From Lentimicrobium sp. L6 (GTDB lineage: Bacteria > Bacteroidota > Bacteroidia > Bacteroidales > UBA12170): a stretch of DNA of 56,901 nt. The notes beneath the pieces were generated by a model, which was given only the letters and a program-made list of their open reading frames with translations, searched no databases and was not told the DNA's origin. Positions 24,128 through 55,720 of this stretch are shown one piece after another (positions within the stretch are counted from its first letter, which is position 1; the number at the start of each line of letters is the position of its first letter). The DNA is taken from contig NZ_JABKCA010000028.1 in the NCBI RefSeq assembly GCF_013166655.1, forward strand, positions 1 through 56,901. The letters run 5' to 3'. Made by a program: the position numbers and the translations under genes.

Positions 24128-25135
24128 ATGGATAAAAAATCTCGTATACAACAAATACTGACTATTATACTCATCAGTATAATGCTTGTAAACTGTAAAC
24201 CAGTTGTTAAAAAGAAAAACTATGAAATTCCAGATGAATTAAGCAAGAAGATTTGGAAGTTACAATCTGATTTTTGCACATCTATGATGAAAAGTGATTA
24301 TGATAAAACTTTAGACTTATTTAATGATTCTATAGCAGCAAATTTACTTGGTTCGAACTATGACAGTCTTTTTTATGGTTTAAAATATGGCTTGTTTGAA
24401 TATCCATATTTTAGTCAAGATATTTTTTATCAAAAAAGCTTATTCAAAAACACCAAGGTTGAAGTACTTTTTGAAGATGAAGATTTCAACCCATTTCTCA
24501 TTAATTTTATAACTAGAAATAAAGAAACAGCAGTAACTACAGCACTATTGGGTGATGATGATGTACAATACTCTTTGGTAACTTTATATGGAAAATATAA
24601 TAATGGTTGGAAGGTTGATTACATCACATATGGCTTGTACAGAATAGATGATAAAGATGCTCTTGACTGGTTGGTTGAAGCTGAAAAATGCCTATCAACG
24701 AATGATTATATAATGGCCACGTATTGCATGAGAATGGTTGATTGGTTACTTAAACCAGCGCAAGATTTATGGTGTTTTGAAAATGAACCAGAGGTGCTTG
24801 GTAAAATGAAAAGAATCAACAAAAAAATTAATAGGAACTTAAGGCTTAATAAGGTTTTTGTAAACATAGACTCAAAACCAGAACTCAAAGATTATTGTCC
24901 AGTATTTACAAATAAAAAAGTTTACCCTTTAATAACCTATCAAACAAAATTATCTATAAATGATAGTATTTCTATTGAAAAAGAATGTCTAGAACTTGAT
25001 AGTCAATTTAGAGATATCTGTGATAAAATGATTCAGGATTCAATATATATAAGAATCTTACCTTATACTGATGCATGGGTTGAACCTGATACATTTTTAA
25101 TTAAAAAAAGGAAGTTAGTTCCAAAGGTTAAATGA
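24128..25135 (+). CDS. lipoprotein of unknown function
   Basis: The protein has 335 aa. Its signal ends ISIMLVNC with lipidated Cys24, followed by KPVVKKKNYEIPDELSKK. The basic residues right after Cys do not fit the surface-export signal, so periplasmic retention is more likely. The mature part is rich in Asp, Tyr and Lys, with several cysteines and a helical centre (DALDWLVEAEKCLSTNDYIMATYCMRMVDWLL). No domain is recognised. Base composition is very AT-rich like the next two genes, and all three are small orphan genes on one strand, suggesting a variable cassette region. Confidence 0.7.
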   Translation: MDKKSRIQQILTIILISIMLVNCKPVVKKKNYEIPDELSKKIWKLQSDFCTSMMKSDYDKTLDLFNDSIAANLLGSNYDSLFYGLKYGLFEYPYFSQDIFYQKSLFKNTKVEVLFEDEDFNPFLINFITRNKETAVTTALLGDDDVQYSLVTLYGKYNNGWKVDYITYGLYRIDDKDALDWLVEAEKCLSTNDYIMATYCMRMVDWLLKPAQDLWCFENEPEVLGKMKRINKKINRNLRLNKVFVNIDSKPELKDYCPVFTNKKVYPLITYQTKLSINDSISIEKECLELDSQFRDICDKMIQDSIYIRILPYTDAWVEPDTFLIKKRKLVPKVK

Positions 25136-41064: not shown

Positions 41065-41469
41065 CTATTTTTCCTGATACTTCTTTGCTTCTATACGAAA
41101 CCAGTCGTTTATAAGTGCTCTTTGATTATCATCTAGGGCTTTTTCAGGATAATGTTCTAAAAACTTTGAGGGTGGCATATCACCATCCATAGTTACCTTG
41201 GCTATTTCTTTTAATTTGCCACTGCTTTTAATGGCAGAATAATCACTACCAAAACTATCAAAATTAAGTTTTTTCTTACCTTTTTCATTTTTAGAATCCG
41301 TGTGATGGCATCCATAACAAGAATTATCTACAATAGCTTTAACATCGGCAGGCATATTTAATTCTCCTTTAACAGGTACGATACTACCATCTTGTACATT
41401 TAGGCATGTAAAATTATAAAACAGAAAGCCAAAAAATACAGCAGTGAGAATAATAGAATACTTTTTCAT
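41065..41469 (-). CDS. exported heme-binding-domain protein (c-type, CxxCH)
   Basis: The protein has 134 aa with N-terminal hydrophobic segment MKKYSIILTAVFFGFLFYNF followed by TCLNVQDG; this is a signal anchor, or a weak lipobox at Cys23. The heme motif is C-Y-G-C-H in VDNSCYGCHHTDS, so a covalently bound c-type heme in the periplasm is expected. The distal Met may be in GDMPPSKF. The layout fits the Haem_bd family (Pfam 14376), small monoheme proteins frequent in Bacteroidota. A redox role is likely; the partner is unknown. It is the leftmost gene of the continuous minus-strand block that runs to 49.6 kb. Confidence 0.85.
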   Translation of the reverse strand: MKKYSIILTAVFFGFLFYNFTCLNVQDGSIVPVKGELNMPADVKAIVDNSCYGCHHTDSKNEKGKKKLNFDSFGSDYSAIKSSGKLKEIAKVTMDGDMPPSKFLEHYPEKALDDNQRALINDWFRIEAKKYQEK

Positions 41470-41873
41470 AAAATTTGTTTTAAGGTTTCCTCAAAAATAA
41501 GAAAAATGAATTGATCATTTCAGGTTTAAGAGTTTTTTAACCCAAGAAATAAATATAGTGAGTGAACTTATTGAAGTAGCTAGCTTAACAATTACCGTTT
41601 TTTTTATTTTCGCATTATTCAATTCAATTAGCTCAGTTGACTTTTTAGACCAAATAAAAAAATCAAGAATACACAATTCTCTACAAAAAATATAAAAACC
41701 AGTTATTTTATGCTAAAAAGCCCTATTGGATATTCTATATTTCAATCACTTACAAACATGTTTTGATTTAAGCGCTTTTCTCGAAAAATCAATATAGTAA
41801 TACTAGAGAAGCACAAGAAGCAAATAGAGCCTAATTATGAGCGAAAAAGCAAATTTCAGCTGATTATCGACTC
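41470..41873. other. 404-bp AT-rich gap without a gene
   Basis: No coding frame is seen. A fragment TTAGCTCAGTTGAC (about 41628-41641) looks like a tRNA D-arm but has no acceptor, anticodon or T-arm around it. No terminator-grade hairpin is seen. Confidence 0.5.
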
Positions 41874-42779
41874 CTAAACCACTCTTGGCTTAAGAATATA
41901 CAATAAACTGGAATGATTGGGAGGATTCTTGCCTGCTTTCAAATTGGAGTAAGCCCCTTTGAAAAAAGCAGAAAATAATCGAAGTGGATTCTTTTTGTAT
42001 TTTTCAGAGAGGAGGCTCACATAATAAGAATCAAATTTCATAGGATCGATTCGATGCATTTTAAAACCATGGTTATTAAAAAGCAATTCTACGTTTTCTT
42101 TTTTGAAATGATAAAGATGACGAGGAACATCTAAACCGGCCCAATACTTTTCATAATGGTGGGCATCCCAAGAATCCAGATTTGGCAAGGCGATAAAAAC
42201 AGTCCCATTGGCTTTTATTAATCTTTTAAGCTCTTCCATCCTTTTAGAAAGATCGCTCACATGTTCCAAAACATGCCACATGGAAATCACATCGAAAGAA
42301 TCTGAAGGTAATTCATCCAGTTTTTCTTCTCCAAATACTTTTAAGTCGTAGGTTTTCTTTGCATAATCCGCAGCTTCTTTATCTGGCTCGATGCCTACAC
42401 AATGCCATCCTCTCTTCTTAAATTCATTGAGAAATTGACCGGTAGCACATCCAATATCCAAAATAGATTCTCCATCTTTTTTGATATTAGAAACCAATTC
42501 ATATTTCTTACCGAGGGTATAATTCCTCACTTGCTGATATAGAAACCCGAATAATCCTTGATTAGAATTGCTATGAGAAATATATTTGTCGCTCTTATAA
42601 TAGGGAGCTAAAGCTTGTTTTGTTGGACGTGGATTGGTGAAATGGAAACCACATTTCTTACACATACAAATGCCAAATTCCTCTTGAGTGAGAAAATAAT
42701 CCTTGGTTTTAAAGGCTTTTTGCAACTTTATTGAACCACATACTGGGCATTTCTTTAAAATCTCTGTTTGATGTTCCAC
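41874..42779 (-). CDS. zinc-ribbon class I SAM-dependent methyltransferase
   Basis: The protein has 301 aa. Residues 11-42 form a zinc ribbon (C11-x2-C14 in KKCPVCGS, C39/C42 in CKKCGF). The Rossmann methyltransferase domain follows with motif I ILDIGCATGQFL (about 106-117), the acidic loop VGIEPD and MWHVLEHV. A zinc ribbon plus this methyltransferase is common in enzymes acting on surface glycans or small metabolites (Methyltransf_23 group); the substrate is unknown. The start codon is GTG 42779, inside a ParB-binding site; no ATG precedes the zinc ribbon. It lies 14 bp after mnmG on the same strand, so it is transcribed with it. Confidence 0.85.
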   Translation of the reverse strand: MEHQTEILKKCPVCGSIKLQKAFKTKDYFLTQEEFGICMCKKCGFHFTNPRPTKQALAPYYKSDKYISHSNSNQGLFGFLYQQVRNYTLGKKYELVSNIKKDGESILDIGCATGQFLNEFKKRGWHCVGIEPDKEAADYAKKTYDLKVFGEEKLDELPSDSFDVISMWHVLEHVSDLSKRMEELKRLIKANGTVFIALPNLDSWDAHHYEKYWAGLDVPRHLYHFKKENVELLFNNHGFKMHRIDPMKFDSYYVSLLSEKYKKNPLRLFSAFFKGAYSNLKAGKNPPNHSSLLYILKPRVV

Positions 42780-42787
42780 GTGAAACT
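42772..42787. promoter_or_regulatory. parS site 1 (ParB/Spo0J centromere-like site)
   Basis: TGTTCCACGTGAAACT matches the bacterial parS consensus TGTTNCACGTGAAACA at 15 of 16 positions, including the palindromic core CACGTG. It sits between mnmG and the methyltransferase gene and contains the latter's GTG start. Confidence 0.85.
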
Positions 42788-42793
42788 TGATTT

Positions 42794-44665
42794 TTATCTT
42801 CCTAAATAAACTAATAAAACACTAATATCTGCAGGACTCACACCACTCACTCTACTAGCTTGTCCGATGGAAGCAGGTTGTAATTTCTTTAATTTCTCTC
42901 TTGCTTCGAATGACAAAGATAAAAGTTTATCGTAGTCAAAATCCTTGCTCAATGGGATATTTTCAAATTTCTTAAGTTTGTCTGCAATCTCACTTTCCTT
43001 TTCAATATAACGCTCATATTTGATTAGAATTTCCACCTCATCTAATATCTCATCATCATAATATTCTATACTATTCAGATAGGTTTCAAGTGAAGTAGAA
43101 TACTCAATTAAACCTCTTAAATATACTTGAGGACGTGTTAATATTTGAGCAAAACGAGTTTTCTGTTTTAATCCTTGGCTTTTATTAGCTATTAAATACT
43201 CGTTCAATTCTTCAGGCAATCCACTTGTTTTGCCTAAATATTTAATAATTTGTTCAACAGTGTCTTTCTTTCTCAGCATTCTCTGGTAACGCTCTTCGGA
43301 TGCTAAACCTATTTTATATGACTTCTCTGTCAAACGAAAATCAGCATTATCTTGTCTCAAAAGAATTCTGTATTCAGCTCTTGAAGTAAACATGCGATAA
43401 GGCTCATCAACTCCTTTTGTTATCAAATCATCTATTAAAACACCAATATAAGCATCACTTCTACCCAGTACAAATTCATCTTTCCCATAGACTTTAAGAT
43501 GGGCATTAATACCTGCCATCATACCTTGAGCAGCTGCCTCCTCATATCCCGTAGTTCCATTAATCTGACCAGCGAAATATAAACCTTCTATCAGTTTTGT
43601 TTCTAAGGTATAATTTAATTGCTCTGGTGGGAAGAAATCGTATTCTATGGCATAACCAGGACGAAATATTTTTGCATTTTCAAAACCTGGTATTTCTCTC
43701 AAAGCTTTCAATTGAACATCATCTGGCAAAGAACTTGAAAATCCATTGATATAATATTCTATAGAATTCCAACCTTCTGGCTCCACAAATAATTGATGGG
43801 AATCTTTACCACTAAACCTATCTATTTTATCCTCAATACTGGGACAATATCTAGGACCAATTCCTCCAATTCTTCCTGTAAACATAGGAGAAAATTCAAA
43901 ACCTGTTCTTAAAGTATTATGAACGGAAAGGTTGGTATATGCCAAATAACACGAGCGTTGTTTTTCCAATTTAGGAGTATCCAAATAAGAAAACTTACCT
44001 GGGACTTCGTCCCCAGCTTGCTCTTCCAATTTAGAATAATCTATACTTCTACCATCCACTCTAACAGGAGTCCCTGTCTTCATTCTATCAGAGCGAAAAC
44101 CAAGCTCAACGAGTTGTTCTGTAATTCCGGTACTTCCCTTCTCGCCCATTCTCCCACCATGCAGAACTTTCTCTCCTATAAACATTTTTCCATTGAGAAA
44201 AGTTCCATTGGTTAAAACTACAGATTTGGCCCGAATTTCTTGACCCATTTGCGTTTTAACTCCAATGACCTTATTATCTTCAATCATCAATTCATAGACT
44301 TTATCTTGCCAAAAATCGAGGTTTTCGGTTTCTTCTAACATCTTTCTCCATTCTTCGGAAAAACGCATTCTATCACTTTGTGCTCTTGGACTCCACATAG
44401 CAGGACCTTTACTACGATTCAACATTCTAAATTGAATCATACTTTTATCGGTTACAATACCACTATATCCACCTAAAGCATCAATTTCGCGAACGATTTG
44501 ACCTTTTGCAACACCTCCCATTGCAGGATTACAACTCATTTGTGCAATCTTATTTAAATCCATTGTGATGAGCAAAGTCTTCGAACCCAAATTTGCAGCA
44601 GCAGCTGCAGCCTCAGAACCAGCATGACCAGCACCAACTACAATAAGATCGTATATAGGAAACAT
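42794..44665 (-). CDS. mnmG: tRNA uridine-5-carboxymethylaminomethyl(34) synthesis enzyme MnmG (GidA)
   Basis: With MnmE, this FAD enzyme modifies the wobble uridine of several tRNAs (cmnm5U34). I start at ATG 44665, giving [20 protein letters not shown], the usual N-terminus; a GTG at 44683 adds six residues but lies in the parS site. The product has 623 aa, the normal length. The FAD loop is VVGAGHAG; the family motifs [25 protein letters not shown] and [18 protein letters not shown] are present, as is the helical C-terminal domain. mnmE is not in the window. mnmG is adjacent to the replication origin in many bacteria, which agrees with the parS sites on both sides. Confidence 0.97.
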
Positions 44666-44675
44666 CTCGTATTTT

Positions 44676-44691
44676 TGTTCCACGTGAAACC
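44676..44691. promoter_or_regulatory. parS site 2 (ParB/Spo0J centromere-like site)
   Basis: TGTTCCACGTGAAACC matches TGTTNCACGTGAAACA at 15 of 16 positions. It lies 11 bp upstream of the mnmG start and 1.9 kb from site 1. The shared 15-base core with site 1 is identical. Confidence 0.87.
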
Positions 44692-44771
44692 TGTCTTTTA
44701 CGTTTATAAAGTTATTTTCTAAATTAAAACTACATTAAGGGAAGCTTTATACTCTCTCTTATGGGATAGAT

Positions 44772-45194
44772 TTATTTTTGCGGCTGCAAAGATAGGTAAT
44801 AATCTTCTTTTTGGGTCATTAAGATCTTATCGTCAGGATCTTTATCTTTATAACCCAATAAATGGAGTAAACCATGTATTAGAATTCTATCAAACTCCTG
44901 GGCAAAAGTCACATTATTCTTCACAGAATTTTCTTTAATTCTATCAATGCTCATATATATTTCACCTATAATCATATTTCCTCTATTATAGTCGAAAGTA
45001 ATAATATCGGTAAAAGTATCATGATCTAAAAACTCCACATTAATTTTATGCAGGTCTACGTCAGTGAGAAATGTATACGTCAATTTGCCTAATACATAAT
45101 TTTCTTCCTCAATAGCTTTTAAAAGCCATGAGGAAGTCAATTTATGAATAGGTATATTCTTGTTAGGATATATATTTTGAAAAAATAGAGCCAA
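44772..45194 (-). CDS. ybeY: endoribonuclease YbeY (16S rRNA maturation)
   Basis: The protein has 140 aa. This metal-dependent RNase takes part in 16S rRNA 3'-end processing and 70S quality control. The core motif HGLLHLLGYKDKD (about 110-122) carries the two zinc-binding histidines; the third ligand is Asp in GYKD in place of the more common GYDH, as I recall for other Bacteroidota. DIITFDYN and IIGEIYMSIDR are family segments. It ends 106 bp before mnmG and follows the anti-sigma-like gene with only 3 bp between, so it belongs to the minus-strand operon. Confidence 0.93.
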   Translation of the reverse strand: MALFFQNIYPNKNIPIHKLTSSWLLKAIEEENYVLGKLTYTFLTDVDLHKINVEFLDHDTFTDIITFDYNRGNMIIGEIYMSIDRIKENSVKNNVTFAQEFDRILIHGLLHLLGYKDKDPDDKILMTQKEDYYLSLQPQK

Positions 45195-45197
45195 GTA

Positions 45198-45695
45198 TTA
45201 AGCTTTTACAGATTGATTAGCAGTACTAAAATAGGCCTGTAATGAATTCACCCTTGAAACTGCCAATTCTTTATTGATACTGCTTATCTTAAAGCCTAAT
45301 TCAACGCTTTTATCCTCTTCGTTATATTCGATTACATCACTTAGACTCTTCATTAAATAAAGCCCATGCCCAATGTCTTCGTAATTCTCTATGCTAATAT
45401 CAGTAGGATCAGGGTAATTTGTAAAATCGAAACCAGGACCATCATCTTTTACACTAAAGAAAAGTCCTTTATTTTTTGATTCGAATAACACTCGAACCTC
45501 AGATTCCTCATTCTCTTTATTCCCATGAATAATACTATTGGTTACAGCTTCGTTTAAAGCCACCAAAATATTAGAATAGTAAGTAGAATTTACATTATAA
45601 ACATCGGAGATTTGCTCCACAAATTCTTCTAACTTATGCAATTCGGATAAATCGGATTTAATTATTAATTCTTTACTTCTCAACATCATCATCAT
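45198..45695 (-). CDS. RsbW/SpoIIAB-like ATP-binding anti-sigma or kinase protein
   Basis: The product has 165 aa, with the start chosen among four consecutive ATGs (45686-45695) that overlap the end of the DUF4175 gene. The GHKL/HATPase_c_2 motifs are N-box NEAVTNSIIHGN, G1 box DDGPGFD and G2 box GHGLYLMKSL. In Firmicutes such proteins are serine kinases that hold sigma factors and phosphorylate STAS partners, reversed by SpoIIE-type phosphatases. Bacteroidota genomes carry many stand-alone versions of unclear function. It lies between DUF4175 and ybeY genes, overlapping the former and 3 bp from the latter. Confidence 0.88.
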   Translation of the reverse strand: MMMMLRSKELIIKSDLSELHKLEEFVEQISDVYNVNSTYYSNILVALNEAVTNSIIHGNKENEESEVRVLFESKNKGLFFSVKDDGPGFDFTNYPDPTDISIENYEDIGHGLYLMKSLSDVIEYNEEDKSVELGFKISSINKELAVSRVNSLQAYFSTANQSVKA

Positions 45696-48600
45696 CAGTA
45701 TTATCAAACTTATAAAAATATTCGTCCACTTTCTTTTTATAGTATTGGTTAAAGTCCAGCGGAATAGTTTTCATCAAATTTAAATCTTTTTCTTTAATCT
45801 CCTTATACTTTAAAAATTCTTTAGGGTTACTTCTTTTAATGTTTTTTCCTTCATCGCTCTTTCGCTCCTGTTCTTTCTCCCTCTGACGTTCAGCTTTTTC
45901 CGACTTTAAAAGGCGTGTCATAATATTTTGTTGACGCTTTAAAGTCTCCTGAGAAATCATCTTATTTACCAAATCCTTCTCTGTTTCTTCCATCTCCTTC
46001 AATAGCCCATCGAGTCCAGAAGGCTTACCACCCGTCTCTTCCATCATTTGATTTTGGTAATCCTCCATCATTCTACGGATTTTAGCTTGTTCGGCAGCCA
46101 TGCGAGCAAATTGCTCACTCATACCTTGCCCTTGTCCTTGTTTACCCTTATCTCCTTTTTTACCTGGCTTTTTTCCATCTTTCATTTGCTTTTGCATCTC
46201 TTTCATTTGATTATTGAGCTGCTGCTGCATTTGCTTCATACTTTTAGCACTAGGATTACCTGAACCTGGTTTTGGACAACTTTTAGATTTTCCACTAGAA
46301 TTTCCCTTCATCATGCTATTCATCATCTGCTCCATTTGCTCCATGGCTTCAGATAGCATTAATGCCAGTTGATTGAAGGAAGTCATAATGAATTGTTGAT
46401 CTTTTAAAGCCTGATCTACTTGATGCGCTTCTAAAAAATCGGTGGTAGATTGTAATCTATAATCTATTTTATTGAATTCTTTGAGGATAAAAGGTTGAAC
46501 AGCGGGCTGTCTTTTTGCCAATGCAGACAAACTATCTCTTACACCTTGGAGTTTAGATTCCATACCAAATTGTCTTCTAACTAAGCCATTATAACTGGGA
46601 TCCATATCCTCCATGGCCAAAAGCGTATCCATAATATCTTCTTGGGTAAAACTGAGTTTAATGAGTTGGTCGAGAATCTCTCGAAGGGTTTCCATATCCT
46701 CTCCCATTTCTTCCATGGCATTAGCCTCCATCTCCATCTGCATGCCTTCGGCCATTTCTTTCATTTCCTCTGCTGCTTCTTCTTGCTTTTCAGAAGCATC
46801 ATCCATCTTCTTGTCTTCTAATTGTTCTTGTGCTTCTTGTTGTAAACTGTCAATCTTTGCTTGTTCTTCTTTTTTCATGTCCAAAGAGTTGGGCTCCTCT
46901 AGGCTTTTATTCAAACTATCTAATTTCGACAATTCCTTTTTGATATCCTCAAAGGCATTATTTATACTGTCTTGTTTTTGCTGAAGTTTATCCGCATCAT
47001 CTTTTTTACTGTCTTTGGTTTCTTCAGCTAGTTTCTTTTGTTCTTCGGACAATTTTTTTAGCTCTTCAATACTTTCTTCCATTCGCATCTCGAACTCCAA
47101 TTGTTTAAACAATTCCAAGTTCCTGTCCAGCTGCTCTTCTAGATCTTCTGAATTTAATTCCATCTGGTCTAGCAACTCCTGACTGTTCTCTTTATTCATC
47201 TCCTCCAGCATCTTCCTGAGCTCCTCCATCTTCTTTTTAGTCTCTTCGTCCATCACCTGTTCAAAAAGCTCCTGAAGTTGTTCTTGCTTATCTAAAATCC
47301 TCTGGTTTTTCTCCAAATCTTCATTTTGTTCACTAATATCTTTACTCTGCTTCTGGAAATCCTCAATCTTCTTTTGTAGTTCTTCCTGTTCCTTGAGTAG
47401 ATCTTCCATTTTCTTGCGATCTTCCCAACTCATGAGTTCCTTATCTATTAATTCTTTTTTAAAGTCTTTAATTCTATTCTGAAGGTCTTTCCATTCCTCC
47501 AGATTATTGCTCAACTCATTTTTCAGGCTATCAGAGTTTTGATTACGTTTTTCTATCAACTCATCTTGACTATCGAAATGATAAACTTGTTTTTGGGAAC
47601 GAGCTGATTTTGGTCCATTCCATCTGTCATTATCAGAAACACTAAAATAATAGGTGATATCTAATCCTTTTTCTTGATTGACTTCCTCTAAATCCAAATA
47701 AAAGTAGAAACGTTGAGGTTTAGTATTGGCATTGATACTTACATTCTGACGAATTTTTTCTTCTCCTTTTTCTATATAGAGACTCAAGGAAGAAAAACCA
47801 TAATCGTCATCAATCATTCCATTGAAATAAAGCAATTTAGTATTCAAACTATCTTCAACAGTTTCCACTTGAATACGTGGATATTCATCGGGAAGCATTT
47901 GCACCAACCAGGAAAGACTATCGCTTTTATCTAAATATTGATTAGAAGAATAAAGTCTATAATTTTTAGTTTCATCTATTGTATCACTAATAATAAATAG
48001 ATTATCCTCAACCTGATATTTATGAAATACAGTATTCTGAATAAAGAGAAGGCTATCACTATGAGCTGTTTTAATATGATATTGTAAAACACTTCCAACA
48101 GGAACACGCAAATCATTAATATTTTTCTCCACTCTATTTGGTAATTGAGTATAAGCTGGTGGAAAAATTTTTATCTCTAAATGATTAAAAACGGCTTTTG
48201 GAAAAACTTCTAATTGATAATTCTTGGTTTGAAACTCATAGGCATCGGAAATATAAAAATCAATGGAATTCCTCAAATTCTTAAAAGTGTACACAAATAC
48301 ATTTCCACTTTTTTTAGTGAATAGATATCTACTATTCTGATAATTGATAAAAAGGCGATCGGGCCATTCTTCTCCTATTATTTGAACTTTGAGTTCGAAA
48401 TCTTCCTTTTGAAAAGCACTTAATTCCTCATTAACAATCTCAATTTTAAAAGGCCATTGTCTTTCAAATTCTTGTTCATACTGCACCAAGCGTTTTGTGG
48501 GTTCCTCCACATATTTTGGTTGAATAAGCCAAGTGAATAAAATGATAGTTAAAGGAATAAGTAGATATTTCCCATATTTTAAATTACTACGAAAATCAAC

Positions 48601-49047
48601 AGCTTTAAGTAATGGAAAAGGTTTAATTTTTTCCGCTTTCTGAGAAATACCAGCTTCTATTAATAGTCTTTGATTTTTATCGATATTCCCCAATTCTTGT
48701 AATTGAAGAACATTACTAAGCTTATCTCTAATTTCAGGGAAATGCTTTCCAATAATTTTAGAAGCATCCTGATAATTAATATGACGATAAATTCTGAGGA
48801 GGGCTAATGCCGGAAGCAAGACAAAATAGACAAAAACACCAATAAATATCAGTAAATAAGAGTATACCAATATGGTACGAGTTTGCACCGAGAAATGCAA
48901 AAAATACTCACTAACAGCTAGGATAATGAAGATACTCAATGAAATCAGAAACAAATACAAAAAGCCTTTAATAATAAGATTCTTATAATACTTATTTATA
49001 AAGGCATCCAGTTTCTTTATGATAATTTCATAATTATTGATGCTCAA
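45673..49047 (-). CDS. large DUF4175-family membrane protein with long coiled coil
   Basis: The protein has 1124 aa. Three membrane helices lie near the N-terminus (about 23-45, 55-82, 158-178). A beta-rich extracytoplasmic region (about 180-500) follows. Then comes a very Glu/Lys/Gln/Met-rich coiled coil (about 505-1040) with runs such as MEQMEQMMNSMM and MKQMQQQLNNQMKEMQKQM and a Gly/Lys linker KPGKKGDKGKQGQGQG. This fits the DUF4175 family of Bacteroidota, whose function is not established. It follows the DUF4494 gene by 19 bp and overlaps the RsbW-like gene, suggesting one operon running away from the putative origin. Low-complexity composition, not homology, dominates the C-terminal half. 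Confidence 0.85.
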   Translation of the reverse strand: MSINNYEIIIKKLDAFINKYYKNLIIKGFLYLFLISLSIFIILAVSEYFLHFSVQTRTILVYSYLLIFIGVFVYFVLLPALALLRIYRHINYQDASKIIGKHFPEIRDKLSNVLQLQELGNIDKNQRLLIEAGISQKAEKIKPFPLLKAVDFRSNLKYGKYLLIPLTIILFTWLIQPKYVEEPTKRLVQYEQEFERQWPFKIEIVNEELSAFQKEDFELKVQIIGEEWPDRLFINYQNSRYLFTKKSGNVFVYTFKNLRNSIDFYISDAYEFQTKNYQLEVFPKAVFNHLEIKIFPPAYTQLPNRVEKNINDLRVPVGSVLQYHIKTAHSDSLLFIQNTVFHKYQVEDNLFIISDTIDETKNYRLYSSNQYLDKSDSLSWLVQMLPDEYPRIQVETVEDSLNTKLLYFNGMIDDDYGFSSLSLYIEKGEEKIRQNVSINANTKPQRFYFYLDLEEVNQEKGLDITYYFSVSDNDRWNGPKSARSQKQVYHFDSQDELIEKRNQNSDSLKNELSNNLEEWKDLQNRIKDFKKELIDKELMSWEDRKKMEDLLKEQEELQKKIEDFQKQSKDISEQNEDLEKNQRILDKQEQLQELFEQVMDEETKKKMEELRKMLEEMNKENSQELLDQMELNSEDLEEQLDRNLELFKQLEFEMRMEESIEELKKLSEEQKKLAEETKDSKKDDADKLQQKQDSINNAFEDIKKELSKLDSLNKSLEEPNSLDMKKEEQAKIDSLQQEAQEQLEDKKMDDASEKQEEAAEEMKEMAEGMQMEMEANAMEEMGEDMETLREILDQLIKLSFTQEDIMDTLLAMEDMDPSYNGLVRRQFGMESKLQGVRDSLSALAKRQPAVQPFILKEFNKIDYRLQSTTDFLEAHQVDQALKDQQFIMTSFNQLALMLSEAMEQMEQMMNSMMKGNSSGKSKSCPKPGSGNPSAKSMKQMQQQLNNQMKEMQKQMKDGKKPGKKGDKGKQGQGQGMSEQFARMAAEQAKIRRMMEDYQNQMMEETGGKPSGLDGLLKEMEETEKDLVNKMISQETLKRQQNIMTRLLKSEKAERQREKEQERKSDEGKNIKRSNPKEFLKYKEIKEKDLNLMKTIPLDFNQYYKKKVDEYFYKFDNTDDDDVEK

Positions 49048-49066
49048 TTTTCAGGAATTTGTAAAA

Positions 49067-49624
49067 TTATTCAGCCGGTTCTTCCGAAGCTTCTTCATCA
49101 GTATCTGTTGATTCTTCTTTTATATTTGTTTTTGGAGCTTCTCCTTCAAAATCACTTAATGGTTTCAAATTATCTGGAATCACTTGTTCCTCTTCTTCAC
49201 CAAATAATGGGAATACATCTAAAATAGAACTTAAAGCTATACTAGGAATCTCAAACGGAACCATCATAGACTCCAAATTCTCCTCTACACGATCAAAAGT
49301 TTGTTTTACACTATTAGCAGCTACCAAAAAGTGATTCGTTACTTTACTAACTTTAGCAGATTTTTCATCAAAATCTTCCCAAGTTACTTTAGCTTTATAC
49401 CAATATTGACCATCCTCATAGTTTACAATTTCAGAGAAATTGGTCTTAGATATTCCTGCTACTACGATATCACCACTACCATACTGCTCCATAATCTCGT
49501 AAATACGAGTTTCTGCTTCAGTAAAATTAATGGCTTCTACTAAATATGTTTCACTGGCACGTACTTGTTTTCCGTGCTCATCAATTTTCTGGTACTTTAC
49601 CTTACAACTAAACCAAGTTTGCAT
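49067..49624 (-). CDS. DUF4494-family protein
   Basis: The protein has 185 aa, is cytoplasmic and has no signal peptide. The first 150 residues match the Bacteroidota DUF4494 pattern: TWFSCKVKYQKIDEHGKQ, ASETYLVEAINFTEAETRIY, YWYKAKVTWEDFDEKSAKVS and NHFLVAANSVKQTFDRVEE. The tail (about 150-185) is acidic and disordered (EEESTDTDEEASEEPAE). The function is unknown. It is the first gene left of the putative replication origin and heads the minus-strand block; a TATTTTTG promoter box lies 22 bp upstream. Confidence 0.85.
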   Translation of the reverse strand: MQTWFSCKVKYQKIDEHGKQVRASETYLVEAINFTEAETRIYEIMEQYGSGDIVVAGISKTNFSEIVNYEDGQYWYKAKVTWEDFDEKSAKVSKVTNHFLVAANSVKQTFDRVEENLESMMVPFEIPSIALSSILDVFPLFGEEEEQVIPDNLKPLSDFEGEAPKTNIKEESTDTDEEASEEPAE

Positions 49625-49645
49625 AATCTTTCTTTATATAAGATG

Positions 49646-49653
49646 CAAAAATA
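49646..49653 (-). promoter_or_regulatory. -7 promoter box of the DUF4494 operon
   Basis: The minus strand reads TATTTTTG, matching TAnnTTTG, 22 nt before the start codon. It points away from the putative origin. Confidence 0.5.
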
Positions 49654-49740
49654 ACAAAACCAATCATGTTCGATACCACCAAATGCCCTTTTTATGCATA
49701 AACATCAATATTTAGGAATTTTTGGGATTTATAGTGTAAA

Positions 49741-50216
49741 ATGAGTAATAATATATGCTTTTTCAACATGTTAATCTATTACAAACTACCATTTTGAATA
49801 GCTTATCAACACTTGTTAATAAAGGATTATAGGGCTATTAACAATTATTGTTGAAATCATGTTGATGACTTGTTCATTAAATATGATAAGATGGAGCTTA
49901 TGAACAAGAAAGCTAGGGTTACGTTAAAATGCGAAAAGTTTTCAGAAGTTTTCATAGCTTCTTAACTTGAAATTAACATCAGATTTCCTGTTTTCACCAA
50001 AATAAATGTACACATTTGTTTTTTCAACAGGATGTTAATAAGACCTTCAAAAATCTGATATTTAAGTCTATTCTATTGTTCAAAAAAGGTGAAAAATGGC
50101 ATCATTCGGAAAAATCTAATTTTTTGACAGAAAGTTATAACGATATTAACAGCCTCCTATATTATTATTAAATAACTTAAAATTTAAAATAAGATAATAT
50201 ATAAATATTGATGATG
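49741..50216. other. putative chromosomal replication origin (oriC)
   Basis: This is a non-coding region between divergent genes. Exact TTATNAACA 9-mers occur at 49803-49811 (+, TTATCAACA), 49814-49822 (-), 49898-49906 (+, TTATGAACA) and 50033-50041 (-). One-mismatch copies occur at 49835-49843, 49860-49868, 49871-49879 and 50143-50151. These differ from the canonical DnaA box TTATNCACA at one position. An AT block at 50161-50220 has only 5 G/C in 60 bases and could be the unwinding element. All genes for about 9 kb left are on the minus strand and all for 6.5 kb right on the plus strand. mnmG and two parS sites are 5-7 kb away. dnaA itself is not in the window. Confidence 0.6.
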
Positions 50217-50234
50217 TTTAAAACTGATAATTTT

Positions 50235-50267
50235 TTTGAGGAAGATTGAAAGCTTTATCTAAATTTG
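50235..50267 (+). promoter_or_regulatory. promoter of the nadA operon
   Basis: TTTG (50235-50238), 21 nt, then TAAATTTG (50260-50267), an exact TAnnTTTG. It gives a leader of about 25 nt. This is among the best two-box promoters in the window and points away from the putative origin. Confidence 0.7.
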
Positions 50268-50295
50268 CATTGCAACAAAACAAAAGATTTGAACG

Positions 50296-51231
50296 ATGGA
50301 TTATATCAGCGAAATAGCGAAACTCAAAAAGGAAAAAAACGCAATCATCCTGGCTCACTATTATCAAATTCCTGAAATTCAGGATATTGCCGATTATATC
50401 GGTGATAGTTTGGGATTGGCTCAAAAAGCTGCAAGCACTGATGCTGAGCTTATTGTATTTGCTGGAGTTCACTTTATGGCTGAAACTGCCAAAATTTTGA
50501 ATCCAAATAAAATGGTTTTGTTGCCAGATTTGGAAGCCGGATGTTCATTGGCGGATAGTTGCCCTCCAGTGGATTTTAAAAAATTTAGAGATCAATATCC
50601 TGATCATATCGTACTTTCTTACATCAATTGTAGTTCAGGAATCAAGGAACTTTCCGATGTGATAGTCACCAGTGGCAACGCTGTTCAAATCGTAGAATCA
50701 TTCCCCAAAGATCAGAAAATCATATTTGCTCCCGACAAAAATTTGGGAGGATATATTAACAACAAAACGGGTCGTGAAATGGTATTATGGGATGGAACTT
50801 GCGAAGTGCATGATATTCTAAGCACTGAGGCCATTATCAAATTAAAGATGGAACATCCAGATGCTGAATTGGTGGCTCATCCTGAATGTGATGGACCAGT
50901 ATTGGCATTAGCCGATATGATAGGATCTACTACAGCTATGTTGAAATATACCAAAAAATCGAATGCTAAGAAGTTTATTGTAGCTAGTGAAACTGGTATT
51001 TTACATCAGATGCAAAAAGATGCTCCAGAAAAAGAATTTATGGTGGTTCCTAAGGATGAGACTTGTAACTGTAACGACTGTCCTTATATGAAATTGAATA
51101 CTTTAGAGAAATTATACCTCTGTCTTAAAAATGAGACTCCTCAAATTGAACTTCCTGAAGATGTGATGAAAAGAGCTGAAAAACCTATTAATAAGATGTT
51201 GGATATAAGTCGTGAGATGGGATTGATTTAA
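50296..51231 (+). CDS. nadA: quinolinate synthase NadA (EC 2.5.1.72)
   Basis: It condenses iminoaspartate with dihydroxyacetone phosphate to quinolinate, the first ring of de novo NAD synthesis, using a [4Fe-4S] cluster. The 311-aa product has the expected three-fold layout: [21 protein letters not shown] (19-38), [15 protein letters not shown] (56-70), [15 protein letters not shown] (76-90), HPECDGPVL and SETGILHQM. Probable cluster ligands are C83, C169 (GTCEVH) and C262 (NCNDCPYM); C259 or C257 could replace the last. It has its own strong promoter and is followed after 18 bp by a DUF2079 gene. nadB and nadC are not in the window. Confidence 0.96.
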
Positions 51232-53534: not shown

Positions 53535-53768
53535 ATGAATACTATAGATCTAAAAAATATTTTGATACATCAAATTGCTGGTATAGATGATAAATCATTC
53601 TTAGCAGCAATAAAAAATATTATTGATTTAAAAACAGATTCAACACTCTATCTTACTAATGTAGAACAGGAATATAAAATTGAACAAGGATTGAAAGAAT
53701 TGAACATTGGTAATTACATTACTAATGAACAGCTTGAAAAAGATGTTGATCAATGGTTAGAAGAATAA
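53535..53768 (+). CDS. antitoxin of a RelE/ParE-type pair
   Basis: The protein has 77 aa, no signal, acidic C-terminus EQLEKDVDQWLEE. It has no clear DNA-binding motif, but the size, helical pattern and the typical amphipathic tail that wraps the toxin fit short antitoxins placed before ParE/RelE genes in Bacteroidota. The LTNVEQEYKIEQGLKELNIG segment may be part of the toxin-binding region. Its stop overlaps the toxin start by 16 bp, the standard coupling that keeps antitoxin in excess. Confidence 0.8.
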   Translation: MNTIDLKNILIHQIAGIDDKSFLAAIKNIIDLKTDSTLYLTNVEQEYKIEQGLKELNIGNYITNEQLEKDVDQWLEE

Positions 53769-55204: not shown

Positions 55205-55614
55205 TAACACAGCTCTCCTGAGCTGTGCCTTATATTTTGATTATGAATATGTTAAACCCCAGTTCTCCTGAACTGTGTAATTTAGTAGTATTAAAAGGCT
55301 TGTAAAAACGGCAGCTCAGGAGAGCCGCGTTAATTCTAGTTATCAGCAAACAGTTTTTGATTAAGGGTAACACAGTTCTCCTGAACTGTGCAATAGATGA
55401 TGTTATTAGTCTTGTAAAAACGGCAGCTCAGGAGAGCCGCGTTACTTCTAGTTATCAGCAAAAAGTTTTTGATTAGCAGTAACACATTTCTCCCGAACTG
55501 TAGAATAGATGGTTTTAATTGGTTTGGAAAAATCGCAGCTCAGGAGAGCCGCGTTACTTCTACTTATCAGCAAACAGTTTTTGATTACTAGTAACACAGT
55601 TCTCCTGAACTGTG
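55205..55614. repeat. tandem REP/BIME array with 112-bp period
   Basis: Forward palindromes, each opening TAAC and built as CACAG(T/C)TC-TCCT-GA(A/G)CTGTG, lie at 55205-55227, about 55255-55277, 55368-55390, 55480-55502 and 55592-55614. Inverted copies ending CGTTA lie at 55309-55332, 55421-55444 and 55533-55555 (core GCTC-AGGA-GAGC). The last three forward copies are exactly 112 bp apart, as are the inverted ones. The linker TTCTAGTTATCAGCAAACAG and following TTTTTGATTA is conserved too. The array fills most of the gap between the nucleotidyltransferase and NahK genes. Confidence 0.88.
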
Positions 55615-55720
55615 GAATTAATAGTGTTAGTAGGTATGATAAAACTGTAAATCGTAGAGCTATATTCTTCCTCCCCATTAATAATATTCCATGATTCACA
55701 TTTAATTATCCATAAATAAT

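Follow-up and report, generated by a model that had tools for sequence, protein, structure and literature searches.

A probable chromosomal replication origin upstream of nadA, with A-type DnaA boxes, in Lentimicrobium sp. L6 and related Bacteroidales

Introduction

The locus considered here raises two questions: whether a non-coding gap between divergent genes of Lentimicrobium sp. L6 is the chromosomal replication origin (oriC), and which form of DnaA box would be read there. The window, that is, the whole 56,901-nucleotide stretch of DNA that was analysed, is contig C28 of a 5.14-Mb draft genome (G000) in 195 contigs. The dnaA gene of this genome is found on contig C17, apart from the candidate. 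Bacteroidetes origins are commonly far from dnaA, according to passages of a paper on Prevotella intermedia (PMC4755523). Boxes are called here A-type (TTATNAACA) or C-type (TTATNCACA, the form of classical origins of the Escherichia coli and Bacillus subtilis type) after the base at position 6.

The gap at 49625-50295 is very probably oriC, judging from its sequence and that of its relatives. We hold with considerable confidence the fuller reading, in which this origin would carry TTATNAACA boxes and a core, similar to the basal unwinding system (BUS), that opens an AT-rich tract, and would be served by a DnaA that reads A or C at position 6. That the specificity of the initiator has itself changed throughout the order is a more tentative proposal, and is weighed below.

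Material and methods

The nadA gene was located in 34 of 41 relatives and in 114 of 121 genomes of the order. In all, 76 upstream stretches were gathered: 30 and 27 came from related-locus searches, and 19 were hand-picked, mostly from long contigs. After removal of six stretches of less than 900 bp, 70 genomes remained. A smaller set of 29 loci was obtained from 30 by removing one with only 3 bp upstream, and its expected counts are derived from dinucleotide shuffles. DnaA domain IV was read by tblastn alignment in 60 genomes, 50 of Bacteroidales and 10 from outside the order.

The gap and its boxes

Genes diverge from the gap on both sides. To the left are seven minus-strand open reading frames (ORFs; 41065-49624), and to the right are six plus-strand ORFs of at least 80 aa together with one of 77 aa at 53535-53768. 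The original prediction described seven minus-strand and seven plus-strand genes meeting at this point; the left-hand count stands, and the right-hand count does so if the 77-aa ORF is included. A doubtful minus-strand ORF of 83 aa with a GTG start (55448-55699) is one possible exception on the plus-strand side. The mnmG (gidA) gene on the left is an origin neighbour in other bacteria (passages of PMC10225481 and PMC12843772). Cumulative GC skew within the 57-kb window reaches its minimum in the bin 49001-51000. Scans of the window for tRNAs and Rfam families gave no matches.

The features of the region are collected in table 1. Four exact A-type boxes are present in the gap against 0.15 expected, and 12 copies are found at up to one mismatch (four exact and eight with one mismatch) against 3.21; neither count is reached in any of 1000 dinucleotide shuffles of the gap. 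The four exact 9-mers in both orientations that had been described are therefore present, and the number of one-mismatch copies is corrected from four to eight. The exact C-type box TTATNCACA is absent from 49625-50295, so that no box in its full classical form, with C at position 6, is found there. Elsewhere the A-type motif is unremarkable: it occurs seven times in the whole window (6.5 expected) and 502 times in the draft genome, about once per 10 kb, against 598 for a reversed control pattern. Since neither the window nor the genome is enriched, it is the clustering of A-type boxes in this non-coding gap that is special. The most AT-rich 60-mers of the window start at 50158-50164 and contain five G/C each, which bears out the low-G/C block described beside the boxes and makes it, by composition, a candidate unwinding element.

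Table 1. Features of the candidate origin region, in positions of the window.
Feature	Position	Strand	Remark
mnmG (gidA)	42794..44683	-	about 5 kb left of gap
DUF4494 gene	49067..49624	-	adjoins cluster in part of genus only
Intergenic gap, candidate oriC	49625..50295	.	671 bp, divergent, between DUF4494 gene (-) and nadA (+); homologous nadA-upstream clusters in relatives
Box-like TTTTCAACA, 1 mismatch	49760..49768	+	TTTTNAACA 28 vs 8.7 upstream of nadA in relatives
A-type DnaA box TTATCAACA, exact	49803..49811	+	motif match
A-type DnaA box TTATTAACA, exact	49814..49822	-	inverted pair with box 49803..49811
Box-like CTATTAACA, 1 mismatch	49835..49843	+	CTATNAACA 12 vs 1.4 upstream of nadA in relatives
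Box-like TCATCAACA, 1 mismatch	49860..49868	-	motif match
Box-like TAATGAACA, 1 mismatch	49871..49879	-	motif match
A-type DnaA box TTATGAACA, exact	49898..49906	+	motif match
Box-like TTTTCAACA, 1 mismatch	50021..50029	+	motif match
A-type DnaA box TTATTAACA, exact	50033..50041	-	motif match
Box-like TTTTGAACA, 1 mismatch	50077..50085	-	motif match
Degenerate upstream core box TTATAACGA, 2 mismatches to TTATNAACA	50135..50143	+	in conserved block
Core box ATATTAACA, 1 mismatch	50143..50151	+	conserved block in genus alignment
GC-containing spacer GCCTCCT	50152..50158	+	7 bp, directly after core box
Four DnaA-trio-like trinucleotides ATA TTA TTA TTA	50159..50170	+	middle T on this strand; trio definition from passages of PMC8287927 and PMC8235120
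AT-rich tract, candidate unwinding element	50158..50223	.	5 G/C per 60
Box-like TTTTAAACA, 1 mismatch	50215..50223	-	inside AT-rich tract
nadA, quinolinate synthase	50296..51231	+	neighbour conserved alongside origin

Other groups of boxes exist in the same genome. Inverted A-type pairs no more than 12 bp apart occur four times, and A- or C-type pairs no more than 28 bp apart seven times (control, two). Among these seven pair sites, more than two boxes are seen only at the candidate origin and on contigs C33 and C37. The C37 site has three boxes in about 160 bp. On C33, three exact A-type boxes and a TTTTCCACA-like site are packed into some 50 bp at about 24220-24271, ahead of a short gap and immediately upstream of an ORF that, on visual inspection, resembles a Crp/Fnr-type regulator. 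Both clusters may be regulatory DnaA sites, and that on C33 is perhaps a site of DnaA titration or a DnaA-regulated promoter. A cluster beside dnaA was considered and rejected: the dnaA locus of this genome has single boxes only. The dnaA loci as a group carry 0.18 A-type boxes per kb.

Conservation upstream of nadA

Box clusters recur upstream of nadA across the order. In the 29-locus set there are 68 copies of TTATNAACA where 5.2 would be expected (13-fold) and 16 of TTATNCACA where 1.8 would be (9-fold), with TTATNGACA at 6 against 1.7 and TTATNTACA at 9 against 3.5. The kilobase upstream of nadA in the 70 Bacteroidales contains 159, 28, 17 and 13 copies of these four words, respectively. 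When all words of the form 4+N+4 were searched de novo in the last 700 bp upstream of nadA, TTATNAACA ranked first (145 against 10.8). At least three A- or C-type boxes are present in 38 of the 70 nadA-upstream kilobases, whereas only 2 of 885 control kilobases from the same order reach this number; control kilobases with an A+T content of at least 0.70 hold 0.22 A-type boxes per kb. The boxes are concentrated at distances of 100-600 bp from nadA on its upstream side; both orientations occur, and the spacing varies. The two types may be mixed within a cluster, as in G009 with three C-type and four A-type boxes. Fewer than three boxes are found in the remaining 32 kilobases, where either the origin has left nadA or the boxes are degenerate. 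Outside the order the linkage is weak: 2 of 29 loci have at least three A- or C-type boxes (G042 and G072).

An A at position 6, the predicted peculiarity of the box, is strongly supported by these counts and by a changed DnaA recognition helix (see below). Its range is wider than the single lineage first supposed: A-type usage is apparently order-wide in Bacteroidales, C-type boxes forming the smaller share of the mixture. The expectation that the 9-mers would be conserved at a nadA/DUF4494 junction survives for nadA alone. DUF4494 was found in 22 of 41 relatives, but it adjoins the cluster in no more than four genomes: G000, G002, G009 and, over a contig boundary, G003. A related-locus search with it returned two loci. 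Because only some members of the genus have it next to the cluster, DUF4494 was rejected as an origin marker. The assembly of the genus mate G003 breaks inside the origin gap, between DUF4494 and nadA (end of C154, start of C18).

Skew supports the placement in a closed relative, G288. Cumulative GC skew, sampled in 20 spread stretches of 20 kb, is lowest between 2.43 and 2.65 Mb, a range that includes the nadA cluster (about 2.483 Mb). Over the 20 kb surrounding the cluster, the first 12 kilobases have negative skew and those past the cluster mostly positive skew, and ORFs longer than 100 aa switch from 11 minus to seven plus exactly at the cluster. The dnaA gene of G288 is at 1 kb, nearly opposite the origin cluster at 2.48 Mb of 4.81 Mb. 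In G265, where nadA is preceded by eight A-type boxes on a long contig, the skew is consistent with this (10 stretches, 500-kb steps). A skew minimum is found both at the gap in the window and at the homologous site of G288. The inference of an oriC, as originally made, gains strong comparative support from the nadA-upstream clusters across the order, from the flip of skew and gene direction in G288 and from the conserved unwinding-type core.

Three genomes from outside the order were also inspected. In G072 the skew is weak, with a plateau at about 2.8-3.8 Mb and nadA at 3.71 Mb; in G142 a broad minimum spans about 1.2-2.05 Mb, and nadA, at 2.09 Mb, is without boxes. G134, whose DnaA reads KDHSTVMYA, has five copies of TTATCCACA within about 170 bp at about 1.941 Mb, 11 kb from nadA. 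Its coarse skew minimum is at 2.6-3.06 Mb, away from this 1.94-Mb cluster, which speaks against the cluster being its origin.

A core with box, spacer and trinucleotides

The nadA-proximal end of the gap is organized like a known unwinding module. BUS consists of DnaA boxes, a short spacer and at least three trios (3'-NAN-5', reading CTA on the box strand), as described in passages of PMC8287927 and PMC8235120. In the window, a box (ATATTAACA) is followed by a 7-bp spacer, within the 16 bp that BUS allows, and by four trios (ATA TTA TTA TTA, with the middle T on the box strand that answers to the A of 3'-NAN-5'), where at least three are needed. Across families the typical form of the block is TTATCAACA CTATCAACA GCC TATTATCATCAT. 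In the genus alignment the core-box site holds an A-type box in G000 and G003 (ATATTAACA) and in G009 (ATATCAACA), and a C-type box in G004, G005 and G010 (CTATTCACA) and in G008 (TTATTCACA). This exchange at a single site suggests that one protein reads both forms.

The core is detectable upstream of nadA by several patterns of differing stringency. A loose pattern facing nadA is present in 31 of 70 genomes, compared with 11 of 70 on the other strand and 8 of 70 distal control stretches; the strict box-spacer-trio pattern is found in 11 of 70 relatives (0.33 in shuffles). A profile built from nine core sequences detects other families weakly. In 46 of 70 relatives, the 600 bp preceding nadA have their most AT-rich 50-mer beginning at a distance of 50-150 bp from the gene. 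In 121 whole genomes, a 17-base core pattern gave 74 matches against 39 for the reversed control; of the 74, 12 point towards nadA from a position no more than 400 bp upstream of it. Thirteen matches away from nadA were inspected; 11 have no clear box cluster, and nothing else suggests an origin there. The core in G248 (C15, about 45.4 kb) and G240 (C3, about 91.2 kb) sits in large gaps with five and three exact A-type boxes, respectively, and not beside nadA, whose upstream 2 kb is box-free in both genomes. These two clusters are likely to be relocated origins. The surrounding 12-14 kb show a weak GC skew in each case.

The DnaA recognition helix

DnaA of the present genome reads KDHATVLHA in place of the classical helix (DHTTV, with Thr at E. 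coli position 435). At the position aligned with Thr435, 46 of 50 Bacteroidales have Ala, three have Ser (G018, G209 and G231) and one has Thr (G020); in the 10 genomes from outside the order the residue is Thr in four, Ser in five and Ala in one. Among solved structures, the DnaA proteins of B. subtilis (8btg) and Aquifex aeolicus (1l8q, 2hcb) align with DHTTV, and that of Thermotoga maritima (2z4r), which has a wholly different box, reads SHPVV. Passages of PMC5742627 state that helix 434-451 reads the TnCACA part of the box and that T435M is defective; residues 432-435 and 438-439 are placed in contact with bases (passages of PMC5742627/PMC5043019). Residue 435 lies in this base-contacting helix, so the Ala substitution sits at the right place.

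The link between residue and box letter is not clean. The 38 Bacteroidales genomes with Ala435 and available sequence have 114 A-type and 18 C-type boxes. Genomes with other residues keep A-type boxes as well: three A-type and no C-type in G020 (Thr), three and one in G231 (Ser), and four and one, in 486 bp, in G209 (Ser). Outside the order, A-type and C-type boxes number five and three with Ser435 (four genomes), two and three with Thr435 (three genomes) and none of either with Ala435 (one genome). A strict correspondence was rejected for this reason, and a causal role of the Thr435 to Ala change in the altered box has an even chance at best. In G243 and G262, several G-type boxes (TTATCGACA/TTATTGACA, two and three copies) are present upstream of nadA, and Asn replaces Asp at E. 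coli position 433. G253 also has Asn at 433, yet no nadA-linked boxes. A second code shift, pairing G-type boxes with Asn433, is possible.

Alternative explanations

That the cluster arose by chance in an AT-rich gap has next to no probability. The 9-mer is itself AT-rich and genome-wide as common as its reversed control, but the shuffled gap never attains the observed counts, and neither the control kilobases of the order nor the AT-rich ones among them resemble the nadA-upstream stretches. It is very improbable, too, that the 9-mers are operators through which a transcription factor controls nadA and its neighbour, with the skew minimum nearby by coincidence. The tie to nadA across many families would be expected of such operators, and nadA expression could be regulated by NAD status. 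Operators do not, however, account for boxes that are spread over some 100-600 bp in both orientations and at irregular intervals, that differ at one position from the classical DnaA box and are interspersed with exact TTATNCACA (as in G009), and that end in a core with a GC spacer, trios and an AT-rich tract beyond it. The switch of skew and gene direction at the G288 cluster, and the presence of cluster and core away from a box-free nadA in G240 and G248, likewise argue for an origin.

A more serious competitor accepts the origin, but takes the A-type sites as low-affinity classical boxes, kept for regulation or produced by A+T drift, with the specificity of DnaA unchanged. We consider this unlikely, though well short of negligible. 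The genomes are A+T rich, C-type boxes are enriched as well in both the 70-genome and the 29-locus sets, and A-type boxes co-occur with Thr435 or Ser435. Against it, the A-type box exceeds the C-type in enrichment over dinucleotide shuffles, and other one-base changes of the C-type box are mostly at expectation, with the exception of CTATNCACA (5 against 0.8). In 157 Bacteroidia genomes there are 86 inverted A-type pairs with a separation of at most 12 bp, compared with 17 matches to the reversed pattern; for C-type pairs the figures are 13 and 7. The strongest core positions also carry A. The opposing proposal is an order-wide change of the DnaA-box code, in which losing the side chain of Thr435 would have given Bacteroidales DnaA a preference for A at position 6, with further local changes, for example to G at that position where Asn has replaced Asp433; to this we give slightly less than an even chance.

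Proposed mechanism and relation to known origins

The preferred reading, an oriC with A-type boxes and a BUS-like core, predicts the following steps. (i) DnaA would bind several boxes of TTATNAACA consensus, in both orientations, at about 49760-50085. (ii) By resemblance to BUS, the box pair at 50135-50151, with the GC spacer and the ATA/TTA trinucleotides at 50152-50170, would guide a DnaA filament onto a single strand. (iii) The AT-rich tract at 50158-50223 would then open, and replication forks would leave both ways. Judged by box usage, Bacteroidales DnaA would read A as well as C at position 6, and mostly A; Ala in place of Thr435 of the recognition helix is the likeliest candidate for a contributor to this reading.

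Classical origins have in common with this locus the box cluster in both orientations, the AT-rich tract, the skew switch, the divergent genes and mnmG nearby. Unlike in those origins, A predominates at position 6, the linked gene is nadA and dnaA lies elsewhere. The resemblance to BUS extends to tandem boxes, of which the upstream member is frequently the better match in relatives, to a short GC-containing spacer and to trinucleotides with a middle T on the box strand, followed by AT-rich DNA. The boxes here are A-type, however, the tract is TATTATCATCAT in many relatives rather than repeated CTA, and the upstream box of the window is degenerate. The P. intermedia origin predicted by Ori-Finder/DoriC is likewise far from dnaA and was called at a skew switch with the E. 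coli box, one mismatch being allowed; the passages of PMC4755523 consulted name no A-type consensus, nadA linkage or core. Lineage-specific boxes are described, in passages of the literature, for Cyanobacteria (TTTTCCACA), Thermotoga (AAACCTACCACC) and Epsilonproteobacteria (T at position 5). As in Bacteroidales, the consensus has shifted within a lineage, and for Epsilonproteobacteria variation at DnaA residues 435 and 438-439 is proposed as the source of the box differences (passages of PMC5043019). In Bacteroidales, by contrast, the shift affects position 6, which belongs to the CACA part.

Closed Bacteroidales origins are probably catalogued in DoriC. A full-text literature search, made without DoriC, most subscription papers and supplements, found no paper naming TTATNAACA as a Bacteroidota box, although it may be known; nor did full-text searching return a statement that nadA marks the Bacteroidales origin or that residue 435 is Ala.

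Significance

A search that used just TTATCCACA would miss all but the minority boxes of these genomes. The combination of TTATNAACA with a core facing nadA could locate Bacteroidales origins directly, including those in draft and metagenome assemblies. The presence of Ala, Ser and Thr versions of DnaA within one class is a natural experiment on how a recognition-helix residue sets the specificity of the initiator. If the code has indeed changed, the origins and initiators of a large group of gut and environmental bacteria would be read by a code partly different from that of the textbook.
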